Made by a program: the position numbers and the translations under genes. This document shows, in pieces, positions 1,752 through 5,078 of a DNA stretch of 5,931 nucleotides (positions are counted from its first letter, which is position 1; every line of letters begins with the position of its first letter). This DNA is from Candidatus Altarchaeota archaeon (GTDB taxonomy: Archaea; SpSt-1190), in assembly GCA_030590165.1 (NCBI GenBank), contig JAUUZA010000038.1:1-5931 (forward strand). The letters run 5' to 3'. A model generated the notes under the pieces. The model was not told the DNA's origin. It did no database searches and was given only the letters and a program-made list of their open reading frames with translations.

Positions 1752-2327
1752 GTGATAGCAGTTGAAACCATACTCACAGCTGGCTTAGGCTTTCTTGTTC
1801 TTTTGTGGATAGGAATAAGATTCAGAAAGGGCGGACGATGGTTCAAAGAGAAAGGTCTTTTTGGTTTTGCCTTAGTTCTTATAATTGTTGGAACGGCTCT
1901 CTTGTTAATTGCCTTCCTAACAAATAAACTTGAATTTTTAAGTTTATTTGCCGACTACATTCAAGCAAACATTAAAATTGGAACTATTCTTCTTGTCGCT
2001 GGAGCTGTTGGAATAATTATTGACCAACTCTATAGAACTTGGAAAAAAGAACAAAAACTTGGTATTGAACATGAAAGGCGCAGATATATTGAACGTGTTC
2101 GTTTTGGATTAGATGTTGGGGATGCTGAAAAAATTGCAAAAAACCATATCAAAAAGGTTACAGGAAAAACCACTAAACTTGTAGCAAGTAAGAAGGAATT
2201 CAAACACTGGGCTGTTTATCTCAAAGACTCAGACAAAAACTATTATCGAATTGTTATCAACGGTGATGGAAAGATTGAGGAATGGGAAACTATGGATGAA
2301 ATTCCAAGTTATATTCTTAGTCCTTAA
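1752..2327 (+). CDS. Three-helix membrane protein with PepSY-like cytosolic tail
   Basis: A 191-residue protein with three hydrophobic segments at about residues 5-22, 35-56 and 75-93. The loop between the first two is strongly basic (RFRKGGRWFKEK) and the third helix is followed by a basic stretch (RTWKKEQK, ERRR), so by the positive-inside rule the N-terminus is outside and the ~98-residue tail is in the cytosol. From about residue 121 the tail reads like a PepSY-like unit: DAEKIA opens a helix, then HWAVYL, YYRIVING and DGKIEEW form strands. PepSY domains are usually extracytoplasmic, so a cytosolic one would be unusual; the domain call is by pattern only. It follows minD on the same strand, and a cytosolic domain on a membrane anchor could contact MinD, but this is inference. 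The GTG start is chosen because the overlapping ATG at 1750 meets a stop immediately. It has no recognised named family. Confidence 0.75.
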   Translation: MIAVETILTAGLGFLVLLWIGIRFRKGGRWFKEKGLFGFALVLIIVGTALLLIAFLTNKLEFLSLFADYIQANIKIGTILLVAGAVGIIIDQLYRTWKKEQKLGIEHERRRYIERVRFGLDVGDAEKIAKNHIKKVTGKTTKLVASKKEFKHWAVYLKDSDKNYYRIVINGDGKIEEWETMDEIPSYILSP

Positions 2328-2347: not shown

Positions 2348-2920
2348 TTAAGAATATAAAGTATATTTTTGTGGATTGTTCTCCATTTTAGTCAAATCAT
2401 CTTCTAAACACATTAAATGATTCTGTCCTAAACAATCTTTCACATACATCTTAAAACCTACTTTTTTGATATTATCTAAATCGAAACCAAAATTTCCTTG
2501 TTTCAAATAAGCTTGAAAACAAGATGAAATGGCTTGAGCACTTACCCTCTTCATATCGCCATTAGTAATATAATTAATTCTAGAGTAACCCATATCTGAC
2601 TTTGTATTTTCAGCATCTTCAGGTGTTATTTTTATCTCAGAACTATTAGGTTCTAAAGTTAAAAAATCCCAATTATCAATCTTACCTTCTTCATGATGTT
2701 CTAAATAAGTTTCAACTCGAAAAAGCTTACTTCCCCATTTTTTACCTTCCCTTGTTTCACTAACAAACCTTTCTGAATAATTTTGTAAAGTTGCTGTTAT
2801 TGCATTAAGCAAATGTTCAGTTATTGAAGCGTTGATATTACTTAATCCTGAAGTGTCTATTGTGTTAAACTCTTTCGCTCCAGAATAATCTGAACTGGGT
2901 TTGGATAATGAACTCATCAT
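2348..2920 (-). CDS. Hypothetical soluble protein, 190 residues
   Basis: I do not recognise this protein. It has no signal peptide and no hydrophobic segment. The first ~25 residues are Ser/Thr-rich and probably disordered. A helix-like stretch (about 30-55) leads into a segment that looks like alternating strands (KLFRVETYLEHH, NWDFLTLEP, SEIKITPED), then a helical part with SAQAISSCFQAYL and a final strand-rich part ending KYTLYS. Three Cys (two close to the C-terminus) do not form a metal-binding motif. Two adjacent ATG codons open the gene; the first, at 2920, fits a leaderless transcript because a TATTATAA-type box (TTATATAA) is centred 27.5 nt upstream. It is transcribed alone, convergent with the membrane-protein gene (20-nt gap) and divergent from the gene at 3038. 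Codon use resembles its neighbours. The open frame and promoter make a real gene likely; the function is unknown. Confidence 0.75.
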   Translation of the reverse strand: MMSSLSKPSSDYSGAKEFNTIDTSGLSNINASITEHLLNAITATLQNYSERFVSETREGKKWGSKLFRVETYLEHHEEGKIDNWDFLTLEPNSSEIKITPEDAENTKSDMGYSRINYITNGDMKRVSAQAISSCFQAYLKQGNFGFDLDNIKKVGFKMYVKDCLGQNHLMCLEDDLTKMENNPQKYTLYS

Positions 2921-3037: not shown

Positions 3038-3544
3038 ATGAGTTTTGAAAGTTATCATCCAGGACATGGTTGTTTCATTTACAACCCAAAAAGAGACCGA
3101 GAAATAGAAGAAGAAACATCAAAAAATCTTCACAAGGACCTCGTATCTGGTCATTGGCCAAACAACCACAACCCAATTAAAAAAAGAAATATTGAACACT
3201 TTTCTTATACTATAAATTTTCCAAGTCATGTAGATTTAATACGAGCCCTCAAAGAAACAAAATTTGAAGACTTGATATTTGAATTTTATAAAAATGAAGG
3301 AATTGGAATTATTCATCCTAAAAACATTGAACTTAAAGATTTCTTTTCTGACGGAATTCCCTCAAAATATTTAATCGGAAATGTTAGTAAAGAAAAAGGT
3401 GCTTGGGCCATTACTCTTTTGAATAATAAAGAAGACACCAGAAACAAATTCAACAAATATGTAAGCGAAGTATACAAAAATATTCTTATAAAATATACGC
3501 ACAAAAATATTCTTGGTTATAATTTCTTGAAGGCGAAGGAATGA
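3038..3544 (+). CDS. Hypothetical protein, 168 residues, first gene of a coupled pair
   Basis: I do not recognise this protein. It is soluble, with no signal peptide or membrane segment. The N-terminus has a His/Gly-rich patch, YHPGHGCF at residues 6-13, followed by a charged helix (KRDREIEEE). A strand-like FSYTINFPSHVDLIRAL near residue 55 leads into a probable alpha/beta part with KFEDLIFEFY, GIGIIHP and GAWAITLLNN, and a basic helical C-terminus. The clustered His7, His10 and Cys12 could bind a metal, but nothing confirms this. Its TGA overlaps the ATG of the TrpF-like gene in an ATGA arrangement, so the two are almost certainly co-transcribed and translationally coupled, which suggests a shared pathway or complex. 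The ATG start is supported by a TATA-like box 25.5 nt upstream. Confidence 0.75.
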   Translation: MSFESYHPGHGCFIYNPKRDREIEEETSKNLHKDLVSGHWPNNHNPIKKRNIEHFSYTINFPSHVDLIRALKETKFEDLIFEFYKNEGIGIIHPKNIELKDFFSDGIPSKYLIGNVSKEKGAWAITLLNNKEDTRNKFNKYVSEVYKNILIKYTHKNILGYNFLKAKE

Positions 3545-4314
3545 AGCCTTATATTGGAGTAACAGGATTTTCAACATCGAAACAAGCAGAAAAATTATCT
3601 CGTGTGTTTAAACAAAACCTTCCAGAGTATATGAATGGAATGTTTGGAATACTCTTGTCATATAAAGATTTAATAGGAAAGCACGACGAAATCAAAGCTG
3701 GATGGATTAACAAATATCCCGGACTTGAGAATATCCCACAAATCCTTGAAAACATAGACCAAGAATTTTTGCCCATCCTACACTACAACACAAAAGGAAA
3801 TTTTTACAAGGAACTCAAAAATATTCTCCCTGACTTAATGAAAAAGGGACTAAAAGGAATCCAATTAAATATTGTTTGGCCAAATGAACAACACCTAAAA
3901 AAACTAAAAAAAGAATTTCCGAATCTTCAAGTGGTTCTTCAAATCTCACACAAAGCCGCTGAAAATAAAACACAAAGCCAAATTGTCTCAAAACTAAATT
4001 CATATGGAACTAATTTTGATTATTGTTTATTTGATATGTCAGGAGGTCTTGGGCTTCAAAGAGAATACAAAGGAGCTTTTAATTTCTATAAAGAATGTAA
4101 AAAACAAGGAAAAGAAACACCTCATATCTTTGTTGGAGGATTAAGTTCAGATAATGTCAGTAAACGAATAAAAGAAATTTATTCACAAGGAATAAACAAT
4201 TTTGGAATTGACGCCGAAGGCCAATTAATGGACAAAACAAAAACCCTCTCAATAGAAAAAGCAAGTAAATACATTATCAATGCCAGTAACACATACAAAT
4301 CTCTAAAAAACTAA
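3541..4314 (+). CDS. TrpF-like TIM-barrel protein (phosphoribosylanthranilate isomerase fold)
   Basis: A 257-residue protein with the spacing of a TrpF-type beta/alpha barrel. The N-terminal strand IGVTGFS stands where TrpF has KICGIT, GIQLNIVWP (106-114) resembles the TrpF VQLHG strand, LFDMSGGLG (163-171) matches the LLDS-x-GGTG strand and loop with Asp165 in the place of the catalytic Asp, and IFVGGLSSDNV (196-206) plus FGIDAEGQ (221-228) correspond to the AGGL-x-x-NV and GVD-x-SG phosphate-binding loops. The usual catalytic Cys of the first strand is absent, and the protein is longer than a typical TrpF (about 200), so it may have a different isomerase or lyase substrate. No other trp gene is in view. 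Its ATG overlaps the stop of the previous gene; GAAGG at 3529-3533 is a weak possible ribosome site. Its TAA overlaps the stop of the convergent TGS gene. The fold call is by motif reading only. Confidence 0.7.
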   Translation: MKPYIGVTGFSTSKQAEKLSRVFKQNLPEYMNGMFGILLSYKDLIGKHDEIKAGWINKYPGLENIPQILENIDQEFLPILHYNTKGNFYKELKNILPDLMKKGLKGIQLNIVWPNEQHLKKLKKEFPNLQVVLQISHKAAENKTQSQIVSKLNSYGTNFDYCLFDMSGGLGLQREYKGAFNFYKECKKQGKETPHIFVGGLSSDNVSKRIKEIYSQGINNFGIDAEGQLMDKTKTLSIEKASKYIINASNTYKSLKN

Positions 4315-5069
4315 AGCCTACTCTTAATCCAAACAATATCCCCATCTTTCAATTTGAAGTCAATCCCAACCCTATAATTTTTCTTTCCGCGTTTGACCTT
4401 AGCCCAAGCAAATCCTTCAATCATAGTCTTATGTACATCTTTAACTGCATCTTTCATTGTTGCTCCCACTTTCAACAACATAGGTTCATCAGTACCCTTA
4501 GTATAAACTCGAATAAGTTTCATTGCCTTCCAAGCTGCAAATAAAACTTCTTGCGGTCGCTTTCCCTTTGCATAAACTTTTTTTCTATCCTTAAATTTTT
4601 TTTCCGCCGCCTTGTCTTTATCCATAAAAACGACAACATCTGCATTATTGGCATATGAAAAATCAAAACTCGGACAATCAATAAATTGTATCATAGCATC
4701 TCCATATGGTCCCATAGCAGTTTGGGCCACCTGAGTCGAAAATGCAAACTTCTTCGGTTTTCCCTCACCAGTCAATTCATTAAAGAGCCAAGTTTTTCCA
4801 GAATTCGGAGGGCCAATAATTACTACCAATGGAGCCGTCTTCTTAATCCCTTTTCTTTTACTTCCTTTCTTAGTTTTTCGTATTGATTCTTCCTTTGATA
4901 CAAGCTTAACTAAACTTTTTCGTAACTGTGCTAAAAGATTTTCACCTCCCTTATGTTTTGGAGCAAGTGGAATTAATTCGCGTAAAATACGAATTTTTTG
5001 AATATTAGTTCTTGCCTCATTATATTCCTTAAGTTTCATGGCATAATCGAGGGATACATTGGCAGGCAC
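4311..5069 (-). CDS. Shortened TGS-domain GTPase-like protein (Obg/DRG-related)
   Basis: A 252-residue P-loop protein of the TGS-domain, predicted ribosome-associated GTPase family. The N-terminus PANVSLDY and APKHKGGENLLAQL (36-49) are hallmarks of that family; a basic linker (62-77) leads to the G1 P-loop GPPNSGKT at 86-93, a G2-like FST (110-112), and the G3 region GPYGDAMIQFIDCPSF, where the family has MPYE-x-VQIQLVDTPP. After the next strand (ADVVVFMD, 143-150) only about 35 lysine-rich residues separate it from a full TGS domain (IRVYTKG to DGDIVWIK, 186-249). Full-length relatives are about 350 or more residues, so the part with G4 (NKxD) and G5 is missing. The frame is clean with no sign of a frameshift. 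I chose GTG at 5069 because it gives the conserved MPAN start; TTG at 5075 and ATG at 5039 are alternatives. It likely still binds the phosphates of a nucleotide, but guanine specificity is doubtful. Confidence 0.85.
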   Translation of the reverse strand: MPANVSLDYAMKLKEYNEARTNIQKIRILRELIPLAPKHKGGENLLAQLRKSLVKLVSKEESIRKTKKGSKRKGIKKTAPLVVIIGPPNSGKTWLFNELTGEGKPKKFAFSTQVAQTAMGPYGDAMIQFIDCPSFDFSYANNADVVVFMDKDKAAEKKFKDRKKVYAKGKRPQEVLFAAWKAMKLIRVYTKGTDEPMLLKVGATMKDAVKDVHKTMIEGFAWAKVKRGKKNYRVGIDFKLKDGDIVWIKSRL

Positions 5070-5078
5070 AAACAAATG

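Follow-up and report, generated by a model that had tools for sequence, protein, structure and literature searches.

The window, by which we refer to the whole stretch of DNA under analysis, is a 5.9-kb contig (C64) from an archaeal genome of 724 kb (G000). Our study concerns two genes on its forward strand: ORF A (positions 3038 to 3544), which encodes an orphan protein of 168 amino acids with a His-rich N-terminus, and ORF B (3541 to 4314), which encodes a 257-residue protein with the predicted features of a TrpF-derived (β/α)8 barrel and the diagnostic residues T8, H81, Q108, N110, D165, G199-G200 and D224. Both are present with open frames in an ORF check of the window. At their junction, ...GAATGAAG..., the TGA of ORF A sits within the ATGA start of ORF B, and this overlap of four bases confirms the ATGA coupling described in an initial sequence-only reading of the locus. 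Upstream of the pair, the window encodes a 191-residue protein with hydrophobic N-terminal segments and exclusively sub-threshold Pfam matches (1752 to 2327, forward strand) and a 190-residue protein with no match in Pfam (2348 to 2920, reverse strand). On the other side, a compact DRG/Obg-like GTPase of 254 residues with a TGS domain (4311 to 5075, reverse strand) carries the sequences DCPS and FMDKDK at the expected G3 and G4 sites, and a protein truncated at the end of the contig (5152 to 5931) is marginally similar to the AbiEii nucleotidyltransferase family (E 0.22).

The AlphaFold2 model of ORF B, which was built on three aligned sequences, contains a complete eight-stranded barrel (pLDDT 86.2, pTM 0.86) and predicts a (β/α)8 fold with good confidence. 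In a comparison of this model with VIA-align, TrpF structures occupy the top eleven ranks (Z 17.4-19.9, rmsd 2.5-3.1 for 194-203 residues), followed by other families at Z 16.2 and lower, and the best match in Foldseek is the TrpF 4wui. Folds that rank next are those of aldolases, ribulose-phosphate epimerase and hexulose-phosphate synthase, among others, and a close match in a viral structure library was not found. On the level of sequence, ORF B stays below the curated TrpF cut-offs, and far under every such cut-off in NCBIfam, with 17.8 bits against PRK01222.2-4 (E=0.0018, cut-off 181) and 13.1 bits against Pfam PRAI (E=0.078, cut-off 22.7), the latter of which is narrowly exceeded by three members of the family described below. 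A profile constructed from 24 of these members matches the Pyrococcus TrpF 4aaj with E=1.4e-4 and gives a weak signal on many genuine archaeal TrpFs as well. ORF B is thus a homologue of TrpF. The TrpF-like barrel claimed in the initial reading is borne out by the predicted fold and these weak sequence matches, with TrpF being the nearest family among the structural matches listed.

A first search for relatives of ORF B identified proteins in the archaeal genome G143 and in a metagenome-assembled genome of the Nanoarchaeota (L003), and a further relative was located in an uncultured phage of 485 kb (L005). When the phylum of G143 (371 genomes) was searched with a profile of the first relatives, we obtained 25 matches, 23 of which were kept after leaving out a genuine TrpF residing in a trp operon (G393) and a match that was too weak (G296). 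In this phylum, to which also G197 belongs, the family shows a patchy distribution in about 6% of genomes. Outside, it is found in the genome of the window, two further archaea and three large viral contigs, including two more of 84 and 232 kb, and it was detected in none of nine other genomes of the window's own phylum. Among 394 archaeal genomes, only five proteins are full family members (190-297 bits), and the remaining matches, at 41 bits or less, are genuine TrpFs at the loci that were inspected. No relatives were found in plasmids. In a phylogenetic tree containing 16 genuine archaeal TrpFs, the family forms one clade with a branch support of 100/100. Within this tree, the three viral proteins (L005, L108 and L109) cluster with a support of 98/94. 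The genome G197 contains a second family copy (C117; L087, 1503-2339), in which the first half of the barrel up to the β6 Asp is followed by an unrelated C-terminus. It may represent either a true fusion or a gene that is broken or misassembled, and it was the only addition from a second scan of the phylum that started from G197. A description of the family was not found in the literature. Judged from its sequences, it is a previously unnamed sister clade of TrpF and distinct from TrpF itself.

The distinction between both clades is manifested in the active site. In TrpF, a Cys serves as general base and the Gly-Gly sequence following β7 constitutes the phosphate site. The acid-base pair of the enzyme consists of Asp126 and a Cys (PMC9088769). 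When 28 family members are aligned to 16 genuine archaeal TrpFs, the position of this Cys, which is part of a Cys-Gly sequence at the end of β1 in TrpF, coincides with T8 of the IGVTGF sequence in ORF B (T8-G9, codons at 3562 to 3567, forward strand) and contains Thr or Ser in all family members and Cys in all 16 TrpFs. The loss of the catalytic Cys that was proposed in the initial reading thus holds for all 28 members, and no conserved Cys replaces it elsewhere, with C162 and C186 of ORF B both being variable. The Asp strand and the phosphate-binding loops, whose retention was equally proposed, are conserved. Asp165 at the end of β6 (4033 to 4035, forward strand), which aligns to the general acid of TrpF (D126 in the Thermotoga protein), and D224 are present in 28 of 28 members, as is Gly199, which together with Gly200 (27/28) is located after β7 (4135 to 4140, forward strand) and aligns with the phosphate-site Gly-Gly of TrpF. 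Q108, D165, D224 and the first Gly after β7 are invariant in both groups. Conversely, two residues are invariant in the family and different in TrpF: His81 on β3 (3781 to 3783, forward strand), a candidate general base that is replaced by Val or Ile in TrpF, and N110 on β4, which defines a QxN motif where TrpF contains QxH. The conservation of these polar residues among sequences that are at most 35% identical to ORF B argues for a catalytic site. An invariant Lys, as would be suited for Schiff base formation, was not seen among the invariant columns of the family.

To relate the family to tryptophan synthesis, we searched 26 genomes carrying a family member and 14 control genomes for IGPS, the enzyme following TrpF that uses its product. 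No IGPS above cut-off was found in any of the 26 carriers, whereas all 14 controls were positive for both TrpF and IGPS. Since several carriers are incomplete genomes, the absence from any single one of these carries little weight. A separate genuine TrpF exists beside the family member in a single carrier (G456). The initial reading had pointed out that trp genes are missing next to ORF B, and indeed none adjoin it. The lack of IGPS in the carriers implies that the family plays no part in the usual route to tryptophan. The family was found in very small archaea of the symbiont type and in a small number of large phages, which do not use it for tryptophan. A repurposed enzyme with isomerase fold, as suggested from the sequence, agrees with a TrpF fold lacking its Cys in hosts lacking IGPS.

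The genomic surroundings of the family vary. Its gene is either solitary or accompanied by genome-specific neighbours, frequently with a divergent gene upstream, and a conserved neighbour was not found in the examined loci. Several neighbours recur in two to three loci each, including a HEPN-like/nucleotidyltransferase pair, a TctA-like membrane protein, a helicase with a phosphoesterase and ProRS with a methyltransferase, whose names were all judged by eye, and an HTH-Nudix protein. In G199 and G215, two genomes belonging to one family, the barrel gene is immediately preceded by a gene for a protein that combines a winged-helix with a degenerate Nudix-like domain devoid of the catalytic box (L077, 5306-6028; L079, 1697-2410). 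The two genes overlap by four bases in G199, and the winged-helix protein looks like a ligand-sensing regulator. The 485-kb phage contains a macro-domain gene about 2.4 kb upstream. These Nudix-like and macro-domain neighbours provide a hint towards nucleotide-sugar chemistry, but no proof of it.

ORF A shows a codon signal of 0.28 bits per codon in its frame and of about zero in the five other frames, which compares to 0.19-0.38 bits per codon for the other ORFs of the window and marks it as a coding gene. Its N-terminus, claimed to be rich in His and Cys, is His-rich but not Cys-rich, with six His and a single Cys within the first 56 residues. A single-sequence AlphaFold2 prediction (pLDDT 44.9) is not interpretable, and we found no relatives in 197 archaeal genomes, phages, plasmids, PDB sequences, Pfam, NCBIfam or PHROGs. 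The initial reading had regarded ORF A as a dedicated partner of ORF B, possibly in a two-gene pathway. Such a functional pair, which elsewhere would have been lost or diverged past recognition, could account for the ATGA overlap and for small ORFs located near two relatives of ORF B, one of 86 residues at a gap of 6 bases in L003 and one of 110 residues at a gap of 2 bases in the phage L005. We nevertheless consider it highly improbable. These small upstream ORFs are unlike ORF A, which lacks a relative in any searched set, a gene resembling it is found next to the family in none of 25 other contexts and the gene upstream of the family member is divergent in many carriers. The adjacency is thus not kept and the proposals of a partner and of a two-gene pathway fall with it. 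Instead, ORF A is a lineage-specific orphan that precedes ORF B by chance in the same presumed transcript.

From the retained and altered residues, we infer that the family would bind a phosphorylated substrate and act as an isomerase. ORF B has kept the TrpF barrel, the acid Asp on β6 (D165) and the Gly-Gly/Asp phosphate site of β7-β8. The base Cys on β1 has been replaced by Thr or Ser, and the His on β3 (H81) and the Asn on β4 (N110) have been gained. In this enzyme, D165 would function as acid and H81 as base on a phosphorylated substrate outside of tryptophan synthesis, where the putative roles of H81 and T8 are read from the alignment and the predicted positions of strands. We regard the chances as about even that ORF B belongs to a non-TrpF sister family, which isomerises another phosphorylated sugar or phosphoribosyl-amine instead of phosphoribosylanthranilate by means of D165 and H81, with ORF A not being a partner. 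The closeness to TrpF in fold and sequence, together with the three members barely exceeding the Pfam cut-off, could also reflect a genuine but divergent TrpF, which would use Thr in place of Cys on host-derived or scavenged intermediates. This appears improbable in light of a score of 17.8 bits where NCBIfam demands 181, the Cys missing throughout the family, the absence of the next enzyme from the carriers and the coexistence of a genuine TrpF with a family member in G456.

The loss of the base Cys would also fit if ORF B were no enzyme at all but a ligand-binding or regulatory barrel sensing a sugar phosphate, and the location of the gene just downstream of a possible sensor-regulator in G199 and G215 could be viewed in the same way. 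Since a binding shell would have less need for the invariance of D165, H81, Q108, N110 and D224 in 28 sequences, and since the link to a regulator is confined to two of 25 other contexts, we find this role unlikely. A comparably small probability is assigned to chemistry other than isomerisation on a TrpF scaffold, such as an aldol or epimerase reaction, a decarboxylation or the cleavage of a phosphosugar by a lyase. The folds ranking next after TrpF, which include aldolases and the epimerase and synthase named above, speak for it, and a His on β3 is also known from ribulose-phosphate epimerases, but the acid Asp and the phosphate site both match TrpF and a Schiff-base Lys is not among the invariant residues. 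We tentatively propose, as a possibility to which we would not give even chances, that this TrpF-derived family, in which a new His-based site would replace the Cys base, catalyses a phosphosugar reaction that is useful to archaea of reduced genome size and large phages and that points to a novel pathway of salvage or nucleotide type.

Substrate change in enzymes has its standard models in TrpF and HisA. The family of ORF B offers a natural clade where scaffold, acid and phosphate site were kept, the base was changed and the original pathway is absent from the hosts, and it thus provides a direct test of the repurposing of a barrel. It would also name a gene that in small-genome archaea and large phages is now annotated, if ever, as TrpF-like or hypothetical.

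Among known systems, the closest is TrpF (PF00697), the N-(5'-phosphoribosyl)anthranilate isomerase, which is the best structural match of ORF B, shares its (β/α)8 fold and can be aligned from β1 to β8, including the Gln on β4, the Asp on β6, the Gly-Gly on β7 and the Asp on β8. In contrast to TrpF, the family contains Thr or Ser instead of the catalytic Cys on β1, a new His81 on β3 and a QLN in place of a QLH sequence, and it is found without IGPS or trp genes. ORF B also exceeds TrpF in length by about 50 residues and contains a long connection between β2 and β3. In HisA and PriA, the second catalytic residue is an Asp on β1, a position that is occupied by Thr or Ser in all 28 family members. 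Both enzymes catalyse the same type of reaction as TrpF, an Amadori rearrangement, with a barrel Asp as general acid (PMC9088769). They are not among the 50 structural matches listed for ORF B. Ribulose-phosphate 3-epimerase resembles ORF B as a phosphate-binding barrel of comparable size with a His on β3, but it matches the model with a Z of about 15.5, below TrpF, and differs in its other invariant residues.
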